NCBI GenBank assembly: GCA_945870155.1 | Contig: CAMBSB010000029.1 | Location: 1 to 41,846, forward strand | Source: Paludibacter jiangxiensis | GTDB taxonomy: Bacteria; Bacteroidota; Bacteroidia; Bacteroidales; Paludibacteraceae | Reading direction: 5' to 3' | DNA length: 41,846 nucleotides | Part shown: positions 5,916 to 20,074 of the stretch, one piece after another | Position numbering within the stretch: the stretch's first letter is position 1 | Layout of the letters: each line of letters starts with the position of its first letter | The notes under the pieces: model-generated | Told to the model about the DNA's origin: nothing | Seen by the model: the letters and a program-made list of their open reading frames with translations, nothing else | Databases searched by the model: none | Translations under genes and position numbers: made by a program

Positions 5916-8186
5916 ATGCTAAAACAATTATCCACACTTATTTTATGTGTTATCAATTTGATTGTCTTCGCCCAATCTCCCGCACCTACGGGTTTACTTT
6001 GTCAGCTTCTTTCGCATCCCGAGTTGTCAGTAATTACAGAGCGAAAACCTCAATTTGGGTGGATAGTGAATTCCGACAAACAGGGCGATATGCAAAAGAG
6101 CTATCATATTATGGTGGCTTCGTCGCGTGAGTTGTTGAATGCCGATAGACCTGATATGTGGAATTCGGGAAAAGTAAAGTCAGCTCAATCTATAAATGTC
6201 ATTTATGCAGGGAAACCATTGACTTCCAATGTATCATACTTTTGGAAAGTAAAAACATATAACAAAAAATCAGAAGCATCAAGCTGGAGCGAAATACAGC
6301 AGTTTAATACCGGCGAATTCGACCGCGCAAAAAAATGGCCGGGCGAAAGCAAATGGGTCCAAATTAACTTAGCTAATGGATCAAAACAATGGACATTCGA
6401 AAACCGCCATCCGCTTACTTCTTACCCCGTGAGACCGGTGCGTAAAGCTGTTCGTGCCAATGGAGTGCATTTTTTCGATTTCGGTAGATCGGCTTTTGCA
6501 TCCCTCGAAATGAAACTCACGTGGAAACCAAGCAATAGCACCGATACTGTTTTTCAGCTAAAAATTAATATAGGCGAAAAAGGGGTAGGGGACACTATTG
6601 ACCAAAAACCAGGAGGAGGCGTAATTTTCAGAACTTATAGCTTGAAAATTAAACCTGGAACGAAAACTTATATGCTGGAAATTCCGCGTTTTGTGCCTAA
6701 ATATCCGCACAGTCAGCCTATGCCACTGCAAATTCCGGAAGTGGCACCATTCCGTTTTTGTGAATTAATTTGTGGTGCGGAAAATATTGTTGTGCAGGAT
6801 ATTACACATAAAACCTTGTATATGCTCTACAATGACAAGGCAGCTAATTTTAAATGCTCAAACAGCGATGTAAATGCCATTTATGGCCTTTGTAAATACT
6901 CCACCATTGCCAATACTTTCAACGGTGACTATGCCAACAGCGAGCGCGAACGCATGATGTACGAAGCCGATTGTTACATTCAACAAATGGGACATTATGC
7001 TATCGATCGCGAATTTGCCATTGCCCGCTACAGTACCGAAAATCTCATTTATCATGCGACATGGCCTACCGAGTGGATTTCGCATAGTATTTTTATGGCT
7101 TATGCCGATTATCTCTATACCGGAAATACGGATTTAATTTCAAAATACTATGACGACCTGAAAGCAAAAACCATGATAGCATTGCAAACCGAAAAAGGAT
7201 TGATTAGTACGCGCACCGGTCTGCAAACCAAGGAGTTTTTAAAATCAATTCACTTCAATGGAGGAGGACTTAAAGATATTGTGGATTGGCCTCATGGTTC
7301 GATGAGCACTTTACCCGGAGGTGAAACTGATAATTATGAGTTTAAAGATTATAACACGGTAGTGAATGCTTTTTACTATCAATCATTACTTTACATGGCC
7401 AAAATGTCGGCTGCAATTGGTAAAAATAAAGATGCCGTTTTTTTTAATTTAAAAGCCGATTCGGTGAAAGTGGCGTTTAATAAGCATTTTTTCGATAATG
7501 AAACCGGTTTTTATGTGGATGGTATTGACTCTAAACACAGCTCATTGCATGCTAATATGTATCCCTTGTGCTTTGGTTTAGTTCCTGCCGATAACAAAAG
7601 AGCGGTCATCGATTTTATAAAATCGAAACGGATGGCATGTGGTGTTTATAGTAGTCATTATTTGCTCGAAGCCTTATTCAATAATGATGAAGCCAATTAT
7701 GCTATGAGCCTCATAACCGACAATTCCGATCGTAGCTGGCTAAATATGATACGCGTGGGTGCTACTATGACAACTGAAGCATGGGACAATAAATATAAAT
7801 CGAACAATGGTTGGAGTCATGCCTGGAGTGCTTCACCTGTACATATTTTACCTCGAAAATTGTTAGGTATTGAGCCTGCCGCAGCCGGATTTGGCAAAAT
7901 CAATATTCGTCCGCAGCCGGCAGGTATTTTACAGGCGAAAGCCAAATTGCCAACTATTCGGGGCGATATTGAAGCCGACTATACTTTAGTAAAAGGAAAG
8001 TCGTTTGAACTCAATGTTACCACACCTGTAAACACGACAGCTACTGTGTATTTGCCAATTGTAGCCGAACCTTATAAGCTAAAAATGGATGGCAAGTATT
8101 TGAAAGCTAATACAAATAATGGATATGTTGTCCTGAAAAATGTACGTTCCGGAAAACACAGTTTTATGCTTGAGAGTTTACATTAA
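5916..8186 (+). CDS. Alpha-L-rhamnosidase, GH78-type six-hairpin glycosidase
   Basis: A 756-residue secreted enzyme expected to remove terminal L-rhamnose from oligosaccharides, probably in the periplasm. The signal peptide ends at IVFAQ. Residues about 25-135 form the fibronectin-like N-terminal domain of bacterial rhamnosidases (ERKPQFGWIV, YHIMVASS, VSYFWKVKTYN, EIQQFNTGEF). The (alpha/alpha)6 catalytic domain starts near residue 310 and is followed by a C-terminal beta domain. The acid motif of GH78 (D-C-P-x-R-x-E-R) appears here as NSERERMMYEAD, with E345 and D352 in the aligned positions. The likely general base is E621 in MTTEAWD. It is shorter than many GH78 enzymes (about 900 or more residues) because the middle beta-domain region is reduced. 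It is the first enzyme after susCD. GH78 is the best fit; a related six-hairpin family is possible. Confidence 0.85.
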   Translation: MLKQLSTLILCVINLIVFAQSPAPTGLLCQLLSHPELSVITERKPQFGWIVNSDKQGDMQKSYHIMVASSRELLNADRPDMWNSGKVKSAQSINVIYAGKPLTSNVSYFWKVKTYNKKSEASSWSEIQQFNTGEFDRAKKWPGESKWVQINLANGSKQWTFENRHPLTSYPVRPVRKAVRANGVHFFDFGRSAFASLEMKLTWKPSNSTDTVFQLKINIGEKGVGDTIDQKPGGGVIFRTYSLKIKPGTKTYMLEIPRFVPKYPHSQPMPLQIPEVAPFRFCELICGAENIVVQDITHKTLYMLYNDKAANFKCSNSDVNAIYGLCKYSTIANTFNGDYANSERERMMYEADCYIQQMGHYAIDREFAIARYSTENLIYHATWPTEWISHSIFMAYADYLYTGNTDLISKYYDDLKAKTMIALQTEKGLISTRTGLQTKEFLKSIHFNGGGLKDIVDWPHGSMSTLPGGETDNYEFKDYNTVVNAFYYQSLLYMAKMSAAIGKNKDAVFFNLKADSVKVAFNKHFFDNETGFYVDGIDSKHSSLHANMYPLCFGLVPADNKRAVIDFIKSKRMACGVYSSHYLLEALFNNDEANYAMSLITDNSDRSWLNMIRVGATMTTEAWDNKYKSNNGWSHAWSASPVHILPRKLLGIEPAAAGFGKINIRPQPAGILQAKAKLPTIRGDIEADYTLVKGKSFELNVTTPVNTTATVYLPIVAEPYKLKMDGKYLKANTNNGYVVLKNVRSGKHSFMLESLH

Positions 8187-9164: not shown

Positions 9165-10013
9165 CTAAATAAGCTTAATGGCCTCTTTTATCGTCATATT
9201 TATGTTGATGTTTCGGGTCTTTGCCAGTTGATTACAAACAGTAATAATGCCATTTTCAAGTACATCTTGCCCGTTAAAAATTTCGGCACTCATGCAGTCA
9301 ACCGTGCATGCAAGGATTCCTGCTTCACTGAGCGAGTCAAGACTTTTAATTCCGGCATTATTTTTACCGATTCCGGCATCATTAAAAAACACGGCTTTAA
9401 GGCGATGTTTCTGAGCATAATGTCCTGCACTTACACCACCATGCGAACCACATACAACAATATCGCCTGCATTGCTCTCGTTTAAAAAGGTGATACTATC
9501 AGTTACGGTAATACTTACTCCCTCTATTTGAGTTTGGGTTTGTTTTTTCAAGTCAAGCTTGCTGATATTTTCTTCTTTATTATTTCTAAGAGATTCAAAA
9601 ATTTTGTTTTCTTGATTCGAAGAAGGTAGATTGATCAAATTGATTATTTTGGCAACGGCTTCTTGTACCGAATTGCCTATTTGGATACCGGTTTTTTCGG
9701 CTATTGTATTGGTGTGACTTATCATTCCGCTTTCCCATGTATCACGGGCAACACCAATTTCGGCACTGAAGTGATCGACGGCACAAGCCAGAATACCTTC
9801 AGCTTCATAATGTGAGAGGCCACTTATACCTGCCTCATTCTTGCCTATTCCGGCATTGTTAAGGAAAACAGCTTTAACCCGGCCATTTTTTAACTTTCGG
9901 GCAAAAACTCCATTGTCACCGCAATGCGATGCGCACACAAGTATAGGGCTTGTATTGTCGGGTTGTAAATCACCTAAACTATCCAGGAGTATTACGCCTT
10001 CAGGTAAATTCAT
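9165..10013 (-). CDS. Unrecognised protein made of two similar halves
   Basis: A 282-residue protein with no signal peptide or membrane segment, so probably cytoplasmic. Residues about 6-115 and 166-282 are clearly homologous. ILVCASHCG pairs with IVVCGSHGG, KAVFLNNAGIGKNEAGI pairs with KAVFFNDAGIGKNNAGI, and GILACAVDHFSAEI pairs with GILACTVDCMSAEI. A charged, Lys/Asn/Gln-rich linker joins them. The predicted alternation of beta strands and helices suggests a tandem alpha/beta fold, or an intramolecular dimer of a single-domain ancestor. Ser-His-(Cys/Gly)-Gly and Asn-(Asn/Asp)-Ala-Gly-Ile-Gly-Lys are repeated in both halves and are the best active-site candidates. It lies downstream of iorA-iorB on the same strand, 114 bp after iorB. 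I do not recognise the family and assign no function. Confidence 0.8.
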   Translation of the reverse strand: MNLPEGVILLDSLGDLQPDNTSPILVCASHCGDNGVFARKLKNGRVKAVFLNNAGIGKNEAGISGLSHYEAEGILACAVDHFSAEIGVARDTWESGMISHTNTIAEKTGIQIGNSVQEAVAKIINLINLPSSNQENKIFESLRNNKEENISKLDLKKQTQTQIEGVSITVTDSITFLNESNAGDIVVCGSHGGVSAGHYAQKHRLKAVFFNDAGIGKNNAGIKSLDSLSEAGILACTVDCMSAEIFNGQDVLENGIITVCNQLAKTRNININMTIKEAIKLI

Positions 10014-10036
10014 TTTATTGTAATGTAAAAGGATTT

Positions 10037-10124
10037 AAACACAATGACACAGAGACACAAATATTTAATCTGTAAAAAACAAGATTCCTATTACAATATT
10101 TTGTGACTTTGTGTTTTCGTGTTT
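10037..10124. repeat. Imperfect 30-bp inverted repeat between iorB and the two-halved gene
   Basis: Arms at 10037-10066 and 10095-10124 are imperfect reverse complements (motif like ACACAGAGACACAAATATT) with a 28-base loop. On the minus-strand transcript this could form a long hairpin after iorB and reduce read-through into the next gene. It might also be a short intergenic element of the genome. There is no T-run typical of a strong intrinsic terminator. Confidence 0.55.
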
Positions 10125-10127
10125 TGT

Positions 10128-10733
10128 TTAAAGAGCAAATGCTCGAGCAATTTCTACTCCCTTTTCGTATGCCTTTATATTTCCTTCAATAAATTTTGCG
10201 GGAACACTTTCGCGTACTATCTCAATCATCTCCTCGTGCGGATAGCCTCTAAATTCGGCATAGATGGCAAGCATAACGATATTCATCATTTTGCTGATAT
10301 CAAAATCAGGGCTTTTATTCTCTTCGGGGTCAATGATAAATGTCTTTTTGCCCGACCGCTTTATCAGCTCTGTTTTCGATTCAGGCATATCTTTTTCCAA
10401 TCGGGTGTTCACGCTGGAAGTGCTTAACTCAAATGTACTTGTAAAAACGATGCCATCATCTTTTAGGCAATGTAAATAACGGAGTGTTTCGGTTTGCTCA
10501 AACGATAGCAGATAATCCACATCACCTGATTTGATAAAAGGTGATAAAACCGGCTTGTTTGAATAGCGGAAATGACTCTCAACACCTCCACCACGTTGTC
10601 CTAACCCAATTACATCCGATATTTTTAACTCATAACCAAGTTTCATGTAATACTTGCTTAAGAGGTTGCTGAAAAGGAGAATTCCTTGTCCTCCCACACC
10701 AGCTATGATAATATTTTTTCCTGTATCCTGCAT
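10128..10733 (-). CDS. iorB: Indolepyruvate ferredoxin oxidoreductase, beta (gamma-domain) subunit
   Basis: A 201-residue cytoplasmic subunit of the 2-oxoacid:ferredoxin oxidoreductase family (POR gamma domain). With IorA it converts aryl pyruvates such as indolepyruvate or phenylpyruvate to the aryl-acetyl-CoA, reducing ferredoxin. The N-terminal IIIAGVGGQGILLFSNLL is the characteristic glycine-rich strand-loop-helix. ISDVIGLGQRGGGVESHFRYS is the second conserved segment. Length fits the family. It starts 2 bp after the iorA stop, so the two are translationally coupled in an operon. The pair usually serves aromatic amino acid degradation, or synthesis run in reverse in anaerobes. Confidence 0.93.
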   Translation of the reverse strand: MQDTGKNIIIAGVGGQGILLFSNLLSKYYMKLGYELKISDVIGLGQRGGGVESHFRYSNKPVLSPFIKSGDVDYLLSFEQTETLRYLHCLKDDGIVFTSTFELSTSSVNTRLEKDMPESKTELIKRSGKKTFIIDPEENKSPDFDISKMMNIVMLAIYAEFRGYPHEEMIEIVRESVPAKFIEGNIKAYEKGVEIARAFAL

Positions 10734-10735
10734 TT

Positions 10736-12541
10736 TTATGAATTTATAGCGTCAAACTTACATGCTGTAGAACATAATCCACAGCCCACACAAAGATCCT
10801 CATTGATAACTATCTCCACTTTCCCGTCTTTGCCTTTTTTACTCTCTATGGCTAAACATCCGATATTGATACATTTCCGGCATTGTGTACAAAGATCCTG
10901 ATCAATTTGATAAATGTCGCTTTTTGGCAACTTAAATTTGGTAACACATGGTTTTTGTACAATAACAACAGAATTTGTATTTGAATTTACCGCATTCAAA
11001 ATTGCCTTTTCGAGGTTTTCAAATTCGTACGCATCAACGGTTACGATATCTTTTACACCAATAGCTTCGCAAACTTTGGCAATTTCCAGCTTATTTTCCG
11101 GTTTGTAATTAAACCCAAACTCGCTGGAGGCAATATGCTGTCCACCAGTCATTGCAAGGCAGCTATTATCAACAATAATCGTAGTTGACTGACTGTCGTT
11201 GAAAATCAGATTCATCAACCCGTTGATTCCGGTTGCCCAAAAGCCACCATCGCCAATCATGGCCACAAAGTTTTCTTTGTGATCGGTTGCTACATTGTAA
11301 CCATGAGCCAGCGCAATACTCGACCCCATGCATTTTTGCAGCGAATAGGATTCCATGTGTGGAAAACATCCAATTAAGCCACATGTAACATCGGCAGCTG
11401 CCTTGATTTTATGATTTCGGAGTATTTGTGAGATAAAAAGGTGAGAACATCCGGCGCAACTAACAGGTAGACGAAACGGAATACCATCCATAAGCGTTCT
11501 TTTTGGTGCATCCGGAACGAGTTTTTCCTCAATAATATCAGGTGTAAAACGCATCATTTCGGGGAATTTAGGGAATAATTCTTTTCCAATGACCGCAATT
11601 CCTAAATCCTTGATATTCTTTTCCATAATATCATGACCGTCTTCAATCACATAGAGTTTCTCAACGTGTGCGGCCAATTCCCTGATTAATTTTTCCGGCA
11701 GTGGCATAACCATACCCACTTTTAAAATGGAGGCATCGGGTAACACTTCTGTTGTGTAAAAGTATGGAGTTCCGGCTGTAATTACCCCAATCTTTTTACC
11801 TTTCAATTCAAGCTTGTTGATATCGAAGTTGTTGCAGTCCTCAGCCAAGCGCCTCATGTGTGCAGGGAAATCATTGAAACATTTGGTCAATTTGGGATGT
11901 TCCGAGCCTTTGGCATTCATCATCATGGTAGTCATAATAACTTTGCTGAAGCTAACCTTATATTTTTGTTTGATTTTAACTTTGTATGTGGCGCTTTCAT
12001 CAATAGATACTCCACTGGTAGTTTTGCATATTACCGATGTGATTTTAAGAATCACGGGAGTGCTGTATTCTTCACTAATCTCGAATGCTTTAATCATCAG
12101 GTCTTTGGCCTCCTGACTGTCGCTCGGCTCCAACACCGGAATATTAAACATATTTCCATAATGACGAACATCATTATAATCATCACCCGCTATACGGCCA
12201 ACATCATCGCCAACTACCAAAACCAGTCCACCGTTAATCTGACTGCCAGCAGCTCCGCCCAATGCATCGGCTGCCACATGCAAGCCTACAGTTTTCATTA
12301 CTGCAAAGCTACGGTAACCTGCAAACGAAGCGCCAATGGCTACTTCTAAACCTACTTTCTCATTTGTCGACCACTCACAATAGATATCCGGATATCTATA
12401 TTTTGTATAATCCATTACTTCGGTGGAAGGTGTACCCGGGAAACCGGAAGCAACTTTCACGCCAGCTTCAAAGGCACCTCTGGCAACTGCTTCGTTACCA
12501 TTCATCATTTTCTTTGTGATAATCTTATTTTCTTTCTTCAT
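10736..12541 (-). CDS. iorA: Indolepyruvate ferredoxin oxidoreductase, alpha subunit
   Basis: A 601-residue thiamine-diphosphate enzyme subunit. The N-terminal pyrimidine-binding domain has GNEAVARGAFEAGVKVASGFPGTPSTE. The central TPP-binding domain has GDGGFWATGINGL followed by VDNSCLAMTGGQ, where the GDG...N pattern binds the cofactor through Mg2+. The C-terminus is a two-cluster ferredoxin domain: Cys551, 554, 557 and 562 (CTQCRKCINIGC), then Cys584, 587, 590 and 594 (CVGCGLCSTAC). The unusual C-x4-C spacing closing the first cluster is typical of IorA. Length is normal. It is first in the operon with iorB, behind a good promoter. Ferredoxin dependence fits an anaerobic or microaerobic lifestyle. 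Confidence 0.95.
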   Translation of the reverse strand: MKKENKIITKKMMNGNEAVARGAFEAGVKVASGFPGTPSTEVMDYTKYRYPDIYCEWSTNEKVGLEVAIGASFAGYRSFAVMKTVGLHVAADALGGAAGSQINGGLVLVVGDDVGRIAGDDYNDVRHYGNMFNIPVLEPSDSQEAKDLMIKAFEISEEYSTPVILKITSVICKTTSGVSIDESATYKVKIKQKYKVSFSKVIMTTMMMNAKGSEHPKLTKCFNDFPAHMRRLAEDCNNFDINKLELKGKKIGVITAGTPYFYTTEVLPDASILKVGMVMPLPEKLIRELAAHVEKLYVIEDGHDIMEKNIKDLGIAVIGKELFPKFPEMMRFTPDIIEEKLVPDAPKRTLMDGIPFRLPVSCAGCSHLFISQILRNHKIKAAADVTCGLIGCFPHMESYSLQKCMGSSIALAHGYNVATDHKENFVAMIGDGGFWATGINGLMNLIFNDSQSTTIIVDNSCLAMTGGQHIASSEFGFNYKPENKLEIAKVCEAIGVKDIVTVDAYEFENLEKAILNAVNSNTNSVVIVQKPCVTKFKLPKSDIYQIDQDLCTQCRKCINIGCLAIESKKGKDGKVEIVINEDLCVGCGLCSTACKFDAINS

Positions 12542-12598
12542 ATTATAAAAGGAATCCTCTCTTGTTGTGTATTTTTATCGATTTTCTGATAATTCGGC

Positions 12599-12629
12599 CA
12601 AAATTACTGCTTTTTTGTTACACTCCAAA
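12599..12629 (-). promoter_or_regulatory. Promoter for iorAB
   Basis: Read on the minus strand, a -33 box TTTG (12626-12629) and a -7 box TAATTTTG (12599-12606) are separated by exactly 19 bases. This is the canonical Bacteroidota spacing. Transcription would start near 12592, about 50 nt before the iorA ATG. It is the best-matching promoter in the window. Confidence 0.7.
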
Positions 12630-12888
12630 ATAAAACAGCAATTTAATTATAGAAATTGTAATATTGTTGACTTGAAATCACTAAGAAAATTTATAGGAGA
12701 GATTAGAACAAAGAGCAACCACAAAATGCATCGGGTCGTCAATCCTAAATTTTTTTGATTTGTAACCTATGCCGAGCAGTGGAGAATATGAGAACCTTTA
12801 AATTTGCAACTTATGCCGAGCAAGCGACAAAGTTGGCAAAAATTTAGTTGAGAACTATGCGTGGCAACTACAAACAGCAAATTTGAAA
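12630..12888. other. Intergenic junction between the iorA promoter and the LRR remnant
   Basis: No gene is convincing here; a 63-codon plus-strand frame at 12567-12758 has no family features and overlaps the iorA promoter. The stretch holds a 20-bp direct repeat (annotated separately) and one copy of the AAAGAGC-type motif at 12705-12718. It forms the left boundary of the unusual minus-strand cluster, so insertion scars could be sought here. Confidence 0.4.
12757..12822. repeat. Short direct repeat, two copies of about 20 bp
   Basis: Copies at 12757-12778 and 12802-12822 share the core TATGCCGAGCA preceded by ATTTG(T/C)AAC(C/T), offset by about 44 bases. They lie just outside the LRR remnant. 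They may be an old target duplication, part of a degenerate intergenic repeat, or a protein-binding pair. Confidence 0.5.
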
Positions 12889-13212
12889 TTAATCAATACA
12901 AATAAACTTGCTGCAACCAGAAAATAAACTTCTTCCGGTTTCTGCATTTGGATTGTTGATATTTATGGTTTCTAGTTCGTAGCAGTTTTCAAATGCCAAT
13001 GAACCTATTTATTTTATGCTTTGTGGAATATTAATTGTTTTCAGACTTTCACAATGTCTGAAAACCTGATCATTAATTGTTTGGATATTTTCCGAAAGGC
13101 GGATTGATTTCAAATTGACACAATGGGCAAACGCTCCGGAGTCTAACAACGTAACACTGTCGGCTAAATAAACCGATTCCAAATGCTGACATAAACCAAA
13201 AGCCATGTCATT
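12889..13212 (-). pseudogene. Remnant of a BspA-type leucine-rich repeat protein
   Basis: The frame encodes LRR_5 repeats of the TpLRR/BspA kind: LESVYLADSVTLLDSGAFAHC, then LKSIRLSENIQTINDQVFRHC, then LKTINIPQSIK. A TAA at 13009-13011 interrupts it. The same frame continues past the stop with IGSLAFENCYELETINI, exactly where a repeat should resume, and ends at TAA 12889-12891. Upstream, an in-frame stop at 13213-13215 removes the N-terminus and any signal peptide. So this is a fragment of a surface or secreted protein with at least one nonsense mutation. It is possible, though unlikely, that the 65-codon piece is translated alone. It follows the thioredoxin-fusion gene on the same strand. 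Confidence 0.75.
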
Positions 13213-13227
13213 TTATTTCTCAAAACA

Positions 13228-13962
13228 TCACACTATTAATTTGTAATGCTTTCTTAACTTCTTTACCAAATCTATTTTTGAATCTGGACAAGAAAACACA
13301 TTCACAAGCTTTGTTTGTTTGAACATCATAAAAAATGGAAAACCTTTTATTTTGTTTTTGTGAATCAAATCATTTTTCTCTGCATATTTAACATCGAACT
13401 TTACGAAATGAAATACATTTGAGTATTCATGCTGTATTTGATTTATAATTGGATGCAGAATTTGGCAAGGAATACACCAATCTTCTAAACAAACTGCAAC
13501 AACATTTGGAGCGGAGCTTGTCATTTCTTCAAAGCTTTTATAATTAGTAATATTTGTTATTTCAAAAGGTTCAGGTTTTGATTCCTCCATTTTCCCACCG
13601 CATTTAGGGCAAAGAGAACTTTCTACATCCCACGCTTTTGTACGAGAATAATTACACCACCCGCATTTCACTTTTTCTAATGGCTCACAAACCATTGGCG
13701 GGTCATACATTTGGTAACAAAGTTCAAAATCCCGAAAATACTTCTTTCTGTCGGCATCGTAAATTAGCCGAAACTCTTCGCGCGTAGGATGAGGATAAGT
13801 TGCTTCTTTCGATATCGATACTACCGACAGTTGATTGCATCGGCTGCATTTAACTGTATCTATTTCTTGCTGACAGGTATATTCATAATGCTTGCTACGA
13901 GTAGCCAATGCAGTGTAATTACATGATGTACAGGTGCGGGTGTGAAGTTGGTTGGGGGTCAT
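13228..13962 (-). CDS. Double zinc-ribbon protein with C-terminal thioredoxin domain
   Basis: A 244-residue soluble protein without signal peptide. Two four-cysteine zinc-ribbon-like modules occur at C11/C14...C39/C42 and C100/C103...C118/C121. They are followed by a thioredoxin fold at about 140-244, with active site W-C-I-P-C (C163, C166) and the cis-proline P209 in GFPFF. The domain order is uncommon for thioredoxins. The ribbons suggest binding to a protein or nucleic-acid partner, while the WCxxC site suggests reduction of a disulfide or delivery of electrons to one. It starts 3 bp after the HD gene stops, so it is the last intact gene of the four-gene cluster. I infer a redox role for the cluster, for instance towards its cysteine-rich DUF1848 member, but nothing in the sequence proves it. 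Confidence 0.8.
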   Translation of the reverse strand: MTPNQLHTRTCTSCNYTALATRSKHYEYTCQQEIDTVKCSRCNQLSVVSISKEATYPHPTREEFRLIYDADRKKYFRDFELCYQMYDPPMVCEPLEKVKCGWCNYSRTKAWDVESSLCPKCGGKMEESKPEPFEITNITNYKSFEEMTSSAPNVVAVCLEDWCIPCQILHPIINQIQHEYSNVFHFVKFDVKYAEKNDLIHKNKIKGFPFFMMFKQTKLVNVFSCPDSKIDLVKKLRKHYKLIV

Positions 13963-13965
13963 GTT

Positions 13966-14991
13966 TTATTTTAAAGGAATAAAAATACGATTTTCAGTAA
14001 CGTTTAAATCGGGAATCAACCACCAATTTAAATCTTTAATTCTTTCAGTGTATTTCCTTTGTAAATATATATTGTTGATCTTAATTTCGAGTATGTCATT
14101 AAAACATTTAAATTCAAAATCTTTCAAATTCTCATAGTCACTTACCAATTTTATTGGGTCAATCGAATCTACTAATTGAAACAGGTAAAGAAAAGTATGA
14201 GTTTTCAATTTGATTTTCGGTTTATTAGTCTTGCTTAAAATTAAATCTTGTAAATTATTTTCAAGGTATTCAAGTTCGTTTGAGTTTCCTTTTTTAGTAA
14301 AATAGATATTATGTGAAAGTATTACCCAACTGGCAAATCTATAAACATTTATCAAATTCTTATTCCAAGAGAAGTATTTAGAATTTTGAAGTTGTTTTTT
14401 GATCAAATTTGAGTTCAAAATATCAAATAAAAGTATTCCACCACAAATACCGTGATCGGGTTTTTTTAGGTTCCTATTACTTGAATTTAGCCGATAATTA
14501 AAATAATTAACGTATGTTTTTTCAAAAACTAAAGGAACACCGACTCTTTCTTTTAGATAATACTTAACCTTACCTTCAATAAATTCATCAAAACTCTTAA
14601 ATGTTTGATTATTTTCTATGTCATAACCCAAGTCATGGAAAAGGCATATCAAATACCAAATAAATGAAAATTTAATTCTTGAATCTAAATTCTGTGATTG
14701 GTATCTATTTACAATTTTATCAGCTAAACATTTAATTTTATCACTATTATGATATAGATATATTCCTAGAAAATAGGTTGAAACAATATGCTTAATTCGC
14801 TTATCATCAAGTTTTATAATATTATCAAAAAGTGGATTACCATCTGCTTTTCCAGACAATTCAATAAACTTTAAAACAAACTCTTTTGAATTTTCAATTG
14901 AAAGAAAAGGATCTATATTTAATTTATTGTAATACCTCCATTTTCCGTAGTCTGCAAATAAATCTTGATATATTTTTAGGAGATCAGTCAT
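13966..14991 (-). CDS. HD-domain protein of unknown substrate
   Basis: A 341-residue predicted cytoplasmic protein. The HD metal-binding pattern is visible: an upstream His (H68 or H81), the H119-D120 doublet in CLFHDLGYD, H180 in PDHGICGG, H227 in VILSHNIYF, and a terminal Asp (D275) in FQLVDSIDP. Proteins of this superfamily are metal-dependent phosphohydrolases, often acting on nucleotides or cyclic nucleotides. No partner domain (GYP, RelA, EAL, Cas3 helicase) is present. The gene is visibly more AT-rich than the enzyme genes on either side. It lies 50 bp after the methyltransferase-FISUMP gene and 3 bp before the thioredoxin fusion. The substrate is unknown. Confidence 0.75.
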   Translation of the reverse strand: MTDLLKIYQDLFADYGKWRYYNKLNIDPFLSIENSKEFVLKFIELSGKADGNPLFDNIIKLDDKRIKHIVSTYFLGIYLYHNSDKIKCLADKIVNRYQSQNLDSRIKFSFIWYLICLFHDLGYDIENNQTFKSFDEFIEGKVKYYLKERVGVPLVFEKTYVNYFNYRLNSSNRNLKKPDHGICGGILLFDILNSNLIKKQLQNSKYFSWNKNLINVYRFASWVILSHNIYFTKKGNSNELEYLENNLQDLILSKTNKPKIKLKTHTFLYLFQLVDSIDPIKLVSDYENLKDFEFKCFNDILEIKINNIYLQRKYTERIKDLNWWLIPDLNVTENRIFIPLK

Positions 14992-15041
14992 TTTATTGGT
15001 AGTTATGTTTATTTATATACAAAATTTAATTCAAACACGTT

Positions 15042-16802
15042 TTATTCAATAATTCTAATTAATGACTCTTTTATGGGACCTTTTCCAATATATTCAAGTA
15101 AAAGAAATCTCGCTTTTTCAATTTGTAATAATTCGCCTGCTTTCAATTTACTATTTCTACTTAAAACAAACCTTATTGAGCCATTACCTTCTAGTTTTAG
15201 TAAGACTTCAAGGCAAAAATCATTTTCTAAAACCACTCCAGTATCTTCACTAAACTTTAATCCCGATTCAATAACTAAACCCTCATCTGTTATGATATAT
15301 TCGTTAATGTGTAACTCTATTATTTTGTCAATCTTTTTTCTATCAATAGTTTTCACACAGCGTACAGAGTTTAAATTGCACCAAATACAAGGATGATTAT
15401 TCAACACATCATTATCATATGAAGTATAATAACTTGATATACAAAGATTACCCAAGCCATCGTTTATTTTTTCTGTTGACCACCATTTACCGATTTTACC
15501 AACGTTCTTTAATCCAGTAATTGTCATATATCCACCCGGCAATGCACAAAAACCAGACTCATTAGTTGCACCTTTATTGGGCTCATTCCAATATTTTGTA
15601 CCTTTTGCTTTTAAAATTCCACCAGCCATTCCAGATTGTTTATAAACTCCAGCTAGTTTATACATTTCATGCCACTCTTGACTGCTTGCAATGTGCCACC
15701 CTTCTGGTGCTAAACCTCTTTTATCATCTACGGCAAACCAGTTATAAAGTTTACCATAAATACAATCGCTATAAGTTTTTCTATTATAATTATACCAAAC
15801 GCCAGTTTTGCTTTCACCCCAATTTTCATCATCTTCAATACTGGCTATTTTATCACCGTTTCGATATCTCGTTACTCTTAAATTTTCAGCCATCCATAAA
15901 TAATTTCCAATTTTCACAGTTTTATATACAATACCATCAATGTCAGTCACATTCATAAATTCCGAATAATAATCTTCTAAAACTGCATCGTAATCGACAT
16001 CTATACTTAAACTGCATTTTACTTCAAAAATTAAATTATTCACTTCTACCACCTTATAATCAATCGTCCAACCACAATGCCATTCCTGATTTACATAGTC
16101 GGCAATTGTATTTGAGTTTTGAAAACAAGAAATAAAATTGATTAGTCGTTGATTTTTAAAGTCATTAATATAAGGGCTAACACAAATCAGTAAGTTGTAG
16201 GCTTTGTTTTGTTGAATTAGTTCGGCTAATTGGTCAATATTAAAATATTCTATATCAAGCACATTCGAGAATAAGTGCAAAATAGTTTGATTGTCAGCTA
16301 TCTGAATATCTTCGGCTATTAGCTTGTCAAAATCCTTCTTTACAGTTTTAATTTCGGCATTCGGGAAAAGTTTACGGGCATGAAGCGCAGCTCGTTTTAA
16401 GGCTAATTCAGAAGGTTCAATCAGGGTTATGGTTTTTACGGTAGAACTTATCGCTTTTTCTTTTATATATTCGTAATAAACCACGGTTGCCATTGCTTGT
16501 CCACAGCCCCAATCAATTAGGTGAATATCTTCTAGTTTGTCAGTGGGTAAGTGTTCAAAAGCTGCTTGTAATTTAGCCGAGTGCATTTTGCCATAAGCAT
16601 ACATATACATCGAAAGCAATGCTTCACTTTCGAGCACTTCTACTCCATTGGATAAAGCTTCCCAAAGTTCTGTTCGTACTTCCTCGGGTAGTTGATTCAC
16701 AAAATTTACCGATAGTTTGCGTAAACTTTCAAACGAAGGTTTCTTTAAAACATCAAGCAAGTAGGAATAATTTGTTCCTTTTTCAATGAGGTAGTTGGTC
16801 AT
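15042..16802 (-). CDS. SAM-methyltransferase fused to a FISUMP domain
   Basis: A 586-residue protein with no signal peptide. Residues about 1-270 look like a class I SAM-dependent methyltransferase: motif I is LIDWGCGQAMA (about 95-105), the motif II acidic strand is TLIEPSELALKRA, and a later strand is YNLLICVSPYI. Residues about 285-487 match the Fibrobacter succinogenes major paralogous (FISUMP) domain: DIDGIVYKTVKIGNYLWMAE, then W-Y-N-Y-N, YGKLYNWFAV, GLAPEGWHIASSQEW, ALPGGY, WWSTE and SVRCVK. That domain usually sits on exported proteins of Bacteroidota and Fibrobacteres. The last 100 residues are unrecognised. It starts 2 bp after the DUF1848 gene, implying coupled translation. The fusion suggests that the FISUMP fold presents a substrate or partner to the methyltransferase (inference). 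Confidence 0.8.
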   Translation of the reverse strand: MTNYLIEKGTNYSYLLDVLKKPSFESLRKLSVNFVNQLPEEVRTELWEALSNGVEVLESEALLSMYMYAYGKMHSAKLQAAFEHLPTDKLEDIHLIDWGCGQAMATVVYYEYIKEKAISSTVKTITLIEPSELALKRAALHARKLFPNAEIKTVKKDFDKLIAEDIQIADNQTILHLFSNVLDIEYFNIDQLAELIQQNKAYNLLICVSPYINDFKNQRLINFISCFQNSNTIADYVNQEWHCGWTIDYKVVEVNNLIFEVKCSLSIDVDYDAVLEDYYSEFMNVTDIDGIVYKTVKIGNYLWMAENLRVTRYRNGDKIASIEDDENWGESKTGVWYNYNRKTYSDCIYGKLYNWFAVDDKRGLAPEGWHIASSQEWHEMYKLAGVYKQSGMAGGILKAKGTKYWNEPNKGATNESGFCALPGGYMTITGLKNVGKIGKWWSTEKINDGLGNLCISSYYTSYDNDVLNNHPCIWCNLNSVRCVKTIDRKKIDKIIELHINEYIITDEGLVIESGLKFSEDTGVVLENDFCLEVLLKLEGNGSIRFVLSRNSKLKAGELLQIEKARFLLLEYIGKGPIKESLIRIIE

Positions 16803-16804
16803 AT

Positions 16805-17821
16805 TTATCCAATTATTGAGTCGGTAGTAGTATTTCCTTTAAATCGTTTCCAATTAGCTAAAGCCAATTCTTTTGAAGTATTTGCATAGCAGTACTCGCA
16901 TAAATGCGGACAAGTATTGTATTCGCCTATATCTTTGCTCATTATGCAGCCGCAAAACTCGCGCTGCCCTTTGTCTTTGTTGTTTTTGGTTTTCTCTATT
17001 CGGTATTCTGTATTAAACATATCCGGAGGAGTTATTATTGCTCCCAGAAAATCCATTAGTATTTTATCGTGTGGAAAAAGCTTAATCATTAAATCGTCGT
17101 CCACACATTTATTATGAACAATTCCGTAGTTTTCCAATGGAATTTTTTCGGCACAAGTGCCTATTTCAAATCCCCAGTTTTTGTTTAACTGTTGTAGTCC
17201 GGCTGCATATTCGTTCATTGTTTTTTCGTCAAACTCTCTATAATTAATCTGGCTCTTTTGTAAGTTGGTTTGTACTTTTTTGTACAGCTTTATGTCGGCA
17301 AAGCTAAAAACCATTTTGTCGGTATAATTTTTTAGTTGATTACCAATATTTTCGGTTTTACGGAGCAATTCATCAACGCCAATTTTGTCAGTAAGAATTA
17401 GTGGGTCAAACCGCCAAATAACTTTGTTGCGTCCAATCTTCTCAGATAGTTCCATAAAGGTGTCGATTCTGAATTGCAAACCCGGCACTTTTAATTCCAA
17501 TTTATCCGCATCGTATTCATTCAGCGTATATTGAAAATAGAAATTAGGGATTTGCTCCTGAATAAAATCTAAATGCTTTATAATTGGTTTAGGATTTTTC
17601 GACCAGAATACAATTAATCGGGCATTTTTAAAAGTTACATACATTGGAACTCCGTTAAATGGATTTTTCCACTTCACATAGCCTGCTTTCATTCGCTCCT
17701 CCAACCAATTGGCATAAAACGCAGGAATATCTGTTGCACGGCTTGCTGAAATAATAATTGGTGCTTGAGCATCAACTATTTCACCATCTTGCCTTGTTAT
17801 TTTTATTTTATCCCAGTTCAT
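16805..17821 (-). CDS. DUF1848 protein with C-terminal radical-SAM-like cysteine cluster
   Basis: A 338-residue protein of the DUF1848 family. Typical segments are IISASRATDIPAFYANWL near the start, PFNGVPMYVTF, LIVFWSKNPKPI, QYTLNEYD and IWRFDPLILTD. The C-terminus carries a cysteine cluster: C290 and C292 (FCGC), then C304-x3-C308-x2-C311 (TCPHLCEYCYAN). The C-x3-C-x2-C spacing is that of radical SAM [4Fe-4S] ligands but lies at the C-terminal end. The family is reported as distantly related to radical SAM/spore-photoproduct-lyase proteins; its reaction is not known to me. It is the first gene of the cluster, 2 bp before the methyltransferase fusion. A cytoplasmic iron-sulfur enzyme is likely. 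Confidence 0.88.
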   Translation of the reverse strand: MNWDKIKITRQDGEIVDAQAPIIISASRATDIPAFYANWLEERMKAGYVKWKNPFNGVPMYVTFKNARLIVFWSKNPKPIIKHLDFIQEQIPNFYFQYTLNEYDADKLELKVPGLQFRIDTFMELSEKIGRNKVIWRFDPLILTDKIGVDELLRKTENIGNQLKNYTDKMVFSFADIKLYKKVQTNLQKSQINYREFDEKTMNEYAAGLQQLNKNWGFEIGTCAEKIPLENYGIVHNKCVDDDLMIKLFPHDKILMDFLGAIITPPDMFNTEYRIEKTKNNKDKGQREFCGCIMSKDIGEYNTCPHLCEYCYANTSKELALANWKRFKGNTTTDSIIG

Positions 17822-17904
17822 TCTATTTGTTCTTTTCAGAGCATCAATATTCTTATCAAAAAAGGGGGTTAATCGACCATTTTTCTGATTGATTTTTCCC
17901 GCTT

Positions 17905-17912
17905 CAAATGTA
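17905..17912 (-). promoter_or_regulatory. Possible -7 element for the DUF1848 cluster
   Basis: Read on the minus strand this is TACATTTG, matching TAnnTTTG, 84 bp before the DUF1848 ATG. No TTTG stands at the right distance upstream, so the assignment is weak. Confidence 0.3.
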
Positions 17913-18268
17913 GTTAATTATTCTTTAATTTTGGGCAGGTGTTAATAAGTATTTTTGTAGTTTTATAAACAAAAAGGGAGGTTTGTTATAATAAGGAGTT
18001 CGAATTTGTCCACTTTAATAATTCTTGTTCAATAAATTAAATATTGTCAAGCTTGATAGTCTCCGCAATGTAGAGACAAATGGGCAATCAAATAACAGGC
18101 ATAAGGTGTCATCAGAATATCATCTATTTTGTTCTTTGCTCTTTATTCTTGAATTTTGGCTCCGACTCTGGTTCTTTGCTTTTGGTTTTAAGCTCTTATA
18201 CTGGCTCTGTTTTCATTACAGACAGTAGTTTGCATGAATTTATACCAAACTGCATTCCTTTTTTTACG

Positions 18269-18276
18269 TATTTTTG
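18269..18276 (+). promoter_or_regulatory. Possible -7 element for the GH29 operon
   Basis: TATTTTTG matches TAnnTTTG and lies 34 bp before the chosen GH29 start. The usual -33 TTTG is not at the expected spacing, which would fit an activator-dependent promoter. Its position downstream of the alternative ATG at 18080 supports the start at 18311. Confidence 0.4.
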
Positions 18277-18310
18277 TGAACCGTTTTTTTCAACAAACAA
18301 TTTACTTACA

Positions 18311-20074
18311 ATGAATCACACAAAAATCAATTTCTTGCTAGTTTTGCTTAGCATTTTTTCGATTAATGCCACTGCTCAGTGGTCGCTTACAAACCGTCCC
18401 ACTACACCCAAGCTTACGGAACCTTACACCGTAAAACCTGCCGACCCTGCCGGGTACAGCGAAGTGAAAATGGATTTTCCCATCGCTTCAGGAAAATATG
18501 CTCCACAATGGGATTCGATAAAAAATACTTACACTGGTACTCCGACATGGTTTCGTGATGCCAAGTTTGGAGTGTTTATTCACTGGGGACCTCAAGCGTC
18601 GGGGCGAAGTGGCGACTGGTATGCACGCAATATGTACAAAGAAGGGCATAAAGCCTACAATAATCACTTGAAAAATTTCGGTCATCCGTCGGAATTTGGC
18701 TACAAAGACGTGCTGAATGCTTGGAAAGCACCAAAATGGGATGCTGGAACTTTAACACAAGCTTTTTATGATGCCGGTGCTCGTTTTGTAATGGCGGTAG
18801 GTGTGCATCACGATAATTTTGATATGTGGAATTCAGCTTATCAACCGTGGAATGTAACGAATATTGGCCCCAAAAAGGATATGATTGGTGCTTGGAAAAC
18901 CGAGGCTCAAAAGCGAGGAATGAAATTCGGCATTACTTTTCACCACGAATATACTTGGTGGTGGTGGCACAATGCTTTTGGTGCTGATAAAATCGGCGAT
19001 AAAGCAGGAGTGCCTTACGATGGGCATTTAACCAAAGAAGATGGCAAAGGAAAATGGTGGGATGGCCTCGACCCGCAGTTGCTTTATACCGTGGATATGC
19101 GTCAGTATAAAGATATTGATGTGATTGCATTTGGCAACAAAGGCATTTTTCAAGACCATCAGGATTATGCCAAATGGTATGCCGAATGGTGGGCGCGACG
19201 CATTATGGATGCGGTGGATAAATACGACCCTGAATTGATTTACACGGATGGTAATGGAAAATGGCCTTTCAGCGGCACACATAGCGCCTCGGGTTACAAA
19301 TGCGATGCGGCAGCTCGCGTGGTGGCCGATTTTTACAACAAAGCAGACAAGCGACATGGCAAAACGGATGTGTTGGCTTGTATTAAATTTGCGCCAAACA
19401 ATCCGGCACTGGGTATTACCTACGAAGTAAATTTCCCCAACAAAATAATGACTGACAAACCGTGGATTGGTGAAAACCCCATTGGCGATTGGTATTATGC
19501 GCCGGGATATACCTACGAAGCATCGAGCATGGTGTATAGTTTGCTTGAATATGCCTCGCGCGATGGAAATTATGCTTGTGCTGTGCCCATTACTCCCGAG
19601 GGCGACCTGGAACCTGCCTGCCTGAAAATGCTCAAAGACATGGGCGAGTGGATGAAAATAAATGGTGAAGGAATTTATGGAAGCAAAGCTTGGAAAATTT
19701 GGGGCGAAGGCATTCTGATTGCCGACCCAAAAAAGCCCGAAAAAGCGCCTGCATTGCGCGTTTTCCCCGGCGGAGGGCTATCAAAATTTCATGCAAATTT
19801 CAAATACGAATCTTCCGATTTCCGATTTACCGAAGGAAAAAATGGAGAAATCTATGCTTGGTGTATGACAACTCCAACTTCAGGTTCGAAAATTCTTGTT
19901 AAATCGTTTGGAAAGGAATCTAATCTGCTCGTTAAAAAAATTAAATCAGTTCAATTGTTGGGCTGTAAACAAAAGCTGAAGTGGAAACAAACTGCTGAAG
20001 GTTTAATAGTTACTTATCCTGAGGGATTAGATTTGAAATACGCATTAGGTTTGAAAGTGATAGTAAGGAAGTGA
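18311..20074 (+). CDS. Secreted GH29-family alpha-L-fucosidase
   Basis: A 587-residue exported glycosidase. The start at 18311 was chosen because it begins a clean signal peptide (MNHTKINFLLVLLSIF...ATAQ); the frame is open further upstream without protein-like content. The GH29 TIM-barrel hallmarks are WFRDAKFGVFIHWGP, GDWYARNMY, the GARFVMAVGVHHDNFDMW segment carrying the active-site HHD, and KRGMKFGITFHHEYTWWW. The likely nucleophile is D313 in PELIYTDGNG. The C-terminal part resembles the family's beta-sandwich. GH29 acts on alpha-L-fucosides, and some branches have other deoxy- or galacto-configured targets. It is first in an operon with the propeller enzyme 41 bp downstream. With GH78 in the first locus it suggests a glycan rich in 6-deoxyhexoses. 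Confidence 0.9.
   Translation: MNHTKINFLLVLLSIFSINATAQWSLTNRPTTPKLTEPYTVKPADPAGYSEVKMDFPIASGKYAPQWDSIKNTYTGTPTWFRDAKFGVFIHWGPQASGRSGDWYARNMYKEGHKAYNNHLKNFGHPSEFGYKDVLNAWKAPKWDAGTLTQAFYDAGARFVMAVGVHHDNFDMWNSAYQPWNVTNIGPKKDMIGAWKTEAQKRGMKFGITFHHEYTWWWWHNAFGADKIGDKAGVPYDGHLTKEDGKGKWWDGLDPQLLYTVDMRQYKDIDVIAFGNKGIFQDHQDYAKWYAEWWARRIMDAVDKYDPELIYTDGNGKWPFSGTHSASGYKCDAAARVVADFYNKADKRHGKTDVLACIKFAPNNPALGITYEVNFPNKIMTDKPWIGENPIGDWYYAPGYTYEASSMVYSLLEYASRDGNYACAVPITPEGDLEPACLKMLKDMGEWMKINGEGIYGSKAWKIWGEGILIADPKKPEKAPALRVFPGGGLSKFHANFKYESSDFRFTEGKNGEIYAWCMTTPTSGSKILVKSFGKESNLLVKKIKSVQLLGCKQKLKWKQTAEGLIVTYPEGLDLKYALGLKVIVRK

Follow-up and report, generated by a model that had tools for sequence, protein, structure and literature searches.

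The stretch of DNA analysed here, referred to as the window, comprises 41,846 nucleotides of Paludibacter jiangxiensis and harbors a compact cluster of four open reading frames (ORFs), all on the minus strand and separated by intergenic gaps of only 2, 50 and 3 bp. In the order of transcription, these encode a DUF1848 protein, a methyltransferase (MTase) fused to a FISUMP domain, an HD-type protein and a zinc-ribbon-thioredoxin protein. An earlier note on this DNA had described the same tight array, and the four genes were recovered exactly where it placed them. The first two genes, which constitute a recurrent pair, are the main subject of this report, and their features are as follows (SAM, S-adenosylmethionine).

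16805..17821, minus strand: DUF1848 protein, 338 aa, first gene of the recurrent pair (PF08902; PADLOC RTasDUF1848; AlphaFold2 model)
16889..16912, minus strand: CxxxCxxC motif of the DUF1848 protein, C304, C308 and C311 (alignment, 31/31 rows)
15042..16802, minus strand: MTase-FISUMP protein, 586 aa (ORF; PF09603)
15951..16802, minus strand: class I SAM-dependent MTase domain, residues 1-284, second half of the pair (motifs, model, Foldseek)
15351..15917, minus strand: FISUMP domain, residues 296-484, the exchangeable part (PF09603, E 8.1e-36)
15042..15350, minus strand: C-terminal tail of the MTase-FISUMP protein, residues 485-586 plus stop, with no Pfam match and a low-confidence model

The DUF1848-MTase pair and its tails

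The locus collection was seeded with the MTase domain alone and was blind to DUF1848. It holds 31 loci, each with a substantial MTase domain; L029 and L030, being near-identical, were entered as one, and the remnants in L019 and L021, a short upstream piece in L020 (whose MTase is broken across two frames) and a shorter second MTase in L075 were excluded. DUF1848 was found within 4 kb of the MTase at 24 of the 31 loci, or at 24 of the 29 judgeable ones, the contigs of L032 and L078 being too short to show it. As a baseline, of 198 genomes of the order, 36 were found to contain DUF1848 at any position. At 16 of the 31 loci DUF1848 is on the same strand and either directly upstream of the MTase or fused to it, and in L075 (genome G834) DUF1848, MTase and leucine-rich repeats (LRR) form a single ORF of 891 aa. 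One gene separates the partners in L020 and L072, helicase and ADP-ribosylation genes stand between them in L016, L079, L080, L081 and L083 (DUF1848 being truncated by the contig end in L016 and L080), and in L087 DUF1848 lies downstream of the MTase, one gene away. The DUF1848-MTase pair is very probably a genuine functional unit.

Other arrangements of DUF1848 were observed as well. At L138:3112-8615 it stands beside a helicase, a protein of 690-710 aa without a Pfam match above cut-off and a CheR-like MTase, and at L128:6476-11674 near a helicase and, again, a 690-710 aa protein without such a match; this arrangement is a possible second DUF1848 system. At L127:1310-3314 DUF1848 is followed by an N6/N4-type DNA methylase (PF01555), which is another methyltransferase partner. 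In the viral contig L028, DUF1848 is reduced to its C-terminal part with the Cys motif (7648-7986), which lies ahead of an MTase-helicase fusion. In a Paludibacter relative (L019:8310-10608) DUF1848 is intact, the MTase is cut to its first 69 residues and a KilA-N gene (PF04383) adjoins. Two unjoined contig ends of genome G508 (L073:1-921 and L136:1-1318) each bear a partial YhcG-type gene and suggest the order MTase-LRR, YhcG, DUF1848.

The DUF1848 protein of the window matched PF08902 along the entire profile (positions 1-262 of 262; E 6.7e-91; 305.2 bits against a gathering cut-off of 30.5), and it also matched the PADLOC model RTasDUF1848 (E 7.2e-36). Near its C-terminus, C304, C308 and C311 form the CxxxCxxC cluster motif of radical SAM enzymes, which is invariant in 31/31 aligned rows. 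This bears out the likeness to radical SAM proteins drawn in the earlier note, while the chemistry itself is our inference. C223, C239, C290 and C292 are likewise invariant (31/31 rows), which brings the invariant cysteines to seven, and these four could hold a second cluster. The AlphaFold2 model, built on 30 rows, had a mean predicted local distance difference test score (pLDDT) of 93.2 and displayed alternating strands and helices, with a helix at residues 317-329 directly after the motif.

When profiles were compared by hhalign, the CxxxCxxC stretch aligned with that of the PA0069 radical SAM profile (NF033668) over 24 columns with a probability of 95.6. The PA0069 family is related to spore photoproduct lyase. 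Beyond the Cys motif the match was not significant (score 21.3, E 0.04), as one of 30 column shuffles scored higher (21.8). Because the motif lies near the C-terminus in DUF1848 and in the N-terminal third in PA0069-type proteins, a circular permutation is the natural reading. Rotating the DUF1848 alignment made the local match to PA0069 proteins no longer than the native one; in global mode, the rotated profile aligned over 274 columns and the native profile over 141. These results are only suggestive of a circularly permuted relative of radical SAM proteins. PF04055 (Radical_SAM) gave no match to the DUF1848 protein of the window, native or rearranged, and reached 14.3 bits (cut-off 29.5) with the relative in L143. 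Foldseek searches with the model returned weak best matches (E 9.2e-4, template modelling score 0.26), many of them barrel enzymes and none a clear relative, and sequence searches found no solved relative. DUF1848 is predicted to be a radical-SAM-type Fe-S enzyme that would perform radical chemistry.

The MTase domain carries the motifs DWGCGQ, EPS and HxFSN, and the acidic residue E129 follows strand 2. Its model was confident, with a mean pLDDT per 10-residue block of 85-97 for residues 11-210 and 71-90 for residues 211-260, and it contains the Rossmann-type fold, motif I and acidic residue of class I SAM-dependent MTases. The best Foldseek match was CmoA (E 7.1e-8), which indicates the fold and says nothing of the substrate; the fold matches mix protein N-terminal (NTMT1), ribosomal and small-molecule MTases. 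The domain could be assigned to no named MTase family in Pfam (best 17.4 bits against 27) or NCBIfam (far under the cut-offs), and the nearest MTase entry in PADLOC, C3a159 'methyl transferase', reached only E 0.0013. Searches by sequence for solved relatives of the MTase and of the HD protein gave only chance-level matches.

The FISUMP domain behind the MTase was modelled poorly, with few homologous rows. Comparison with L014, from the same genus, gave nonsynonymous (dN) and synonymous (dS) divergences of 0.07 and 0.59 for the MTase domain, and of 0.52 and 2.07 (saturated) for FISUMP. Amino-acid identity drops sharply at residue 250, near the domain boundary. The FISUMP tail has either been replaced or evolves much faster than the MTase. 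A search for a cassette donor or a diversity-generating template turned up a single other place in the genome with a match (82% over about 55 bp) and no sign of a template.

In the 31 loci, the tails attached to the MTase vary widely. They comprise FISUMP (2), LRR (3), Sel1 with LRR (1), Sel1 (5, one of which, in L087, is N-terminal), FGE-sulfatase (1), superfamily 1 (SF1) helicase (5) and RecQ-like helicase (4), and at three loci the MTase stands alone; in the remaining seven, the MTase is extended at its N-terminus or follows ADP-ribosylation genes. Labels were given by Pfam, by PADLOC (L036) or by phmmer similarity to the proteins so labelled. RecQ-like is a label of our own, resting on Pfam DEAD and Helicase_C matches in three cases and on phmmer similarity, with no helicase match in Pfam, in L086. 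Thus 9/31 tails are of helicase type, L086 by similarity only. On the MTase tree, the nine architecture labels require 11 changes (minimum 8; shuffled mean 21.5), so the tails partly follow lineages, with several changes. It was also observed that in L016, L032, L078-L081 and L083 the MTase domain is a regular part of ADP-ribosylation operons, together with a helicase where the contig reaches that far.

The MTase is sparsely distributed. Matches were found in 9 of 100 relatives, in 26 of 393 genomes of the order (seven with best E values between 4e-4 and 1e-7) and, across the phylum, in 6 of 395 (two reaching no better than about E 1e-4); these counts include the source genome, and some of the order and phylum matches are weak. 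Further copies were found in two plasmid records, one of which was followed to its locus, one phage record and four viral contigs, two of which are near-identical. Near-identical MTases are shared by members of two families and by one viral contig (L020, L074 and L029; end branches 0.04, 0.03 and 0.08). Two contigs are phage-like: L028 has terminase and ParB-like genes nearby, and L031 has tail and endolysin genes. The DUF1848-MTase pair therefore appears to be an accessory, mobile module.

Defence genes were seen beside a number of relatives. PADLOC reported genes of BREX and of Zorya-associated type (BrxC and ZacC in L033), genes of type I restriction (HsdR in L018 and L029, HsdM in L076), PDC-S02 in L072 and PDC-S51 in L077, and the contigs of L029 and L030 carry restriction genes. 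A TIR-pentapeptide gene follows the MTase in L032, and a protein annotated as viperin-family lies about 3 kb off in L035 (a Moraxella plasmid). AlkB-like genes (2-oxoglutarate-Fe(II) oxygenase, PF13532) stand ahead of the pair or the MTase in L018, L033 and L076, the last being assigned by phmmer and PADLOC. Its presence next to three members of the family suggests that a methyl mark could be reversible.

Candidate roles of the pair

The reading we favour, tentatively and at somewhat less than even confidence, is that DUF1848 and the MTase with its exchangeable tail make up a two-gene accessory modification module of defence type, directed against phages or other mobile elements. The tail would recognise a trigger or target (FISUMP, LRR, Sel1 and FGE) or, in the helicase versions, travel along nucleic acid. 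It would thereby direct both DUF1848 and the MTase to one shared substrate, for which nucleic acid is a likelier candidate than protein. The two enzymes would alter this substrate one after the other, DUF1848 by radical chemistry at its C-terminal Fe-S cluster. As a result, molecules of the invader might be disabled or marked, or the host's own might be protected or reset. The window would hold a version with FISUMP as the tail, to which the HD and thioredoxin genes were added later. A nucleic-acid substrate is favoured because 9/31 tails are of helicase type and AlkB-like genes occur at three loci. For the versions with FISUMP (as in the window), LRR, Sel1 or FGE, the substrate may instead be a protein.

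A number of observations weigh against this assignment. The defence neighbours were chosen by eye, without a control set, and the flanks of the window itself consist of indolepyruvate oxidoreductase genes and an alpha-L-fucosidase, with no defence genes. Five of the 31 loci (L033, L035, L073, L085 and L086) have the MTase without DUF1848, and at all 18 further DUF1848 loci that were chosen this MTase was absent within three ORFs. The tail labels cluster on the MTase tree more than shuffled labels do, and only 8 of the 28 inner branches of this tree are well supported. FISUMP, FGE and Sel1 domains are widespread outside defence. Moreover, no radical SAM enzyme was among the 50 Foldseek matches listed for the DUF1848 model.

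If the defence reading is true, radical SAM and methyl chemistry would join bacterial immunity beyond the viperins, with one catalytic core serving many recognition tails. A bolder version, which we consider doubtful, would see here a new immune module in which a circularly permuted radical SAM enzyme and an MTase act as one catalytic unit with swappable sensor or motor tails, much like those of polymorphic toxins and NLR-like receptors; nucleic acid would receive a radical-plus-methyl modification, AlkB would be the eraser, and the ADP-ribosylation-helicase operons would represent a second branch built on this core.

An unlikely alternative is nucleic-acid repair. DUF1848 would reverse a lesion by radical chemistry in the manner of spore photoproduct lyase, AlkB would dealkylate, helicases and YhcG-type nucleases would process the damage, and the MTase would reset a base mark or signal. 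Such a role agrees with the match of the DUF1848 Cys motif to the PA0069 radical SAM profile, with the AlkB-like partners at three loci, with the helicase-type tails (9/31) and with the YhcG-type nuclease near L020 and L072. However, housekeeping repair would not usually show such a sparse distribution (9/100 relatives), carriage by phages or tails as varied as LRR, Sel1, FISUMP and FGE. At L032 the MTase is followed by a TIR gene, and the PA0069 match is not significant outside the Cys motif.

Modification of a protein is, in our estimate, just as improbable as repair. Here DUF1848 and the MTase would both act on a protein, and the FISUMP, LRR, Sel1 or FGE tail would be the bait that binds it. 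The MTase is indeed tied to LRR or FISUMP alone at 5/31 loci and to Sel1 (once with LRR) or FGE at 7/31, and the fold search listed NTMT1, ribosomal and small-molecule MTases alike. On the other hand, the helicase-type tails and AlkB neighbours indicate nucleic acid, and no constant substrate gene was found beside the pair in the neighbourhoods inspected.

The HD-type and thioredoxin genes and the flanks of the cluster

Behind the pair, the cluster continues with two genes and a decayed stretch, and the source genome contains two additional genes of the thioredoxin type.

13966..14991, minus strand: HD-type hydrolase-like protein, 341 aa, a loosely linked accessory gene (invariant residues)
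13228..13962, minus strand: zinc-ribbon-like and thioredoxin protein, 244 aa, a passenger gene (PF00085, E 2.1e-12)
12889..13206, minus strand: decayed BspA-type LRR stretch with an in-frame stop (PF13306, E 1.8e-15 for the first 65 aa; three-frame reading)
L125:9136-9864 and L126:5247-5975: further zinc-ribbon-thioredoxin genes of the source genome, each after uncharacterised ORFs

In the HD-type protein, H68, H119-D120, H180, H227 and D275 are invariant in 6/6 aligned homologues, so the metal-binding H...HD...D set of HD proteins is present (H68, H119-D120 and D275). Profile searches gave no Pfam match at E 0.1, no NCBIfam match, and in PADLOC only the Cas3 model at E 0.001. The gene was found in five of 393 genomes of the order, the source included; the four others (L088-L091) have neither the pair nor an MTase match. 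Among the 100 relatives, only the source had a strong match, and one other had a weak match (E 3.6e-4) inside a longer frame. No HD relative was found in plasmid or phage records at E 1e-3, and none was confirmed in viral contigs. Besides the window, the HD gene was seen with the pair at a single locus, L034, where it lies upstream of DUF1848-MTase-FGE. The link between the HD gene and the pair is occasional.

The last protein of the cluster contains a thioredoxin domain (PF00085, 47.4 bits against 23.5) with the active site WCIPC, and its Cys pairs are C11/C14, C39/C42, C100/C103 and C118/C121. Its N-terminus (132 residues) was matched in the source genome only among the 100 relatives, at three places. 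The genes ahead of the other two copies had no Pfam match above cut-off (four scanned), and the two largest had no PADLOC match. In viral contigs, a pattern search able to pick up only close relatives yielded no zinc-ribbon-thioredoxin protein. The nearest relative of the pair, in genome G021 (MTase domain 85% identical), has neither the HD nor the zinc-ribbon-thioredoxin gene, its contig stopping just behind the MTase gene. The HD gene has a GC content of 0.252, well below the 0.354 of the DUF1848 gene and the 0.358 of the thioredoxin gene, which points to separate origins. On these comparisons, the HD and thioredoxin genes seem to act as passengers and later additions to the pair.

The earlier note had envisaged a modification or salvage pathway of all four genes, in which the thioredoxin fusion supplies electrons; in such a scheme DUF1848 would receive them and HD would hydrolyse a nucleotide product. 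Tight spacing on one strand and the HD gene adjoining the pair at L034 speak for it, but it is very unlikely as a whole. The HD gene occurs without the pair in four genomes, and beyond the source none of the 100 relatives matches it strongly; the zinc-ribbon-thioredoxin gene is present in 0/99 other relatives, lies elsewhere in the source behind unrelated genes and differs in GC from its HD neighbour. As both genes assort independently of the pair, the four-gene pathway was rejected. The electron supply found no comparative support, the other two thioredoxin copies following unrelated genes. There is no pointer to salvage, and modification, with defence as its probable setting, is the better fit. 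The loci collected showed the DUF1848-MTase pair again (24/31 loci, one fusion), but no second locus with all four genes was found. At the other extreme, a chance neighbourhood of four unrelated accessory genes would suit the independent assortment of HD and thioredoxin, but it is highly improbable and already contradicted for the pair, whose two genes adjoin repeatedly in different families and in viral contigs and are fused in one genome.

The decayed BspA-LRR stretch, which the earlier note had overlooked, sits directly behind the thioredoxin gene. Related LRRs make up the tail of the MTase in L015, L073 and L075, and the stretch is possibly what is left of an earlier form of the module, either of its tail or of an LRR gene standing on its own. 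Scanning positions 12500-18300 revealed no terminator-like sites (shuffles: mean 2.7) and promoter-like sites at chance level (26 against a mean of 27.9), so a single transcript is neither supported nor excluded. A Bacteroidota-type promoter pattern and an Rfam scan gave nothing above chance. Among eight relatives with the IorA gene, no clean empty insertion site was found; DNA conservation stops about 100-170 bp upstream of IorA in these relatives, two of which (L149 and L152) end near that limit, and the other six carry other genes there.

Comparison with known systems

No entry for the DUF1848-MTase pair as such, its fusion or its tails was found in Pfam, NCBIfam, PADLOC or PHROGs. A literature search found no description of a DUF1848-MTase system, but most subscription papers were outside its reach and absence is thus unproven. 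The PF08902 family, which the window protein matches at full length, is named as one of unknown function, and its partnership with this MTase is not in the libraries searched. An MTase with exchangeable tails that recurs as its partner, both in defence islands and on phage contigs, opens the function of this family to a direct test.

One known likeness is RTasDUF1848, which PADLOC already holds under its DRT group, so a defence link for the DUF1848 family is not new. The window protein matches this model; there the partner is, by the model name, a reverse transcriptase, while here it is a methyltransferase. No reverse transcriptase domain was found in the eight ORFs at 9165-17821 or in the ORF at 18080-20074, the part of the window that was scanned. 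With the PA0069 or spore-photoproduct-lyase-like radical SAM proteins (NF033668), DUF1848 shares an aligned CxxxCxxC, which in DUF1848 lies near the C-terminus, and the rest of the similarity is marginal.

The same MTase family occurs in operons of ADP-ribosyltransferase or glycohydrolase with helicase (PF22546/PF22545), accompanied by DUF1848 where the contig permits (L016, L079-L081 and L083). In contrast to these operons, the window has no ADP-ribosylation or helicase genes and carries a FISUMP tail instead. Some tails of relatives resemble helicases of known systems: that of L076 matches DpdF (E 1.2e-70) and PsyrT (E 1.1e-50), and that of L036 matches NERD and UvrD (E 1.9e-25). Unlike in PsyrT, DpdF and NERD-UvrD, the helicase of these relatives is fused behind the MTase domain, and the window has none.

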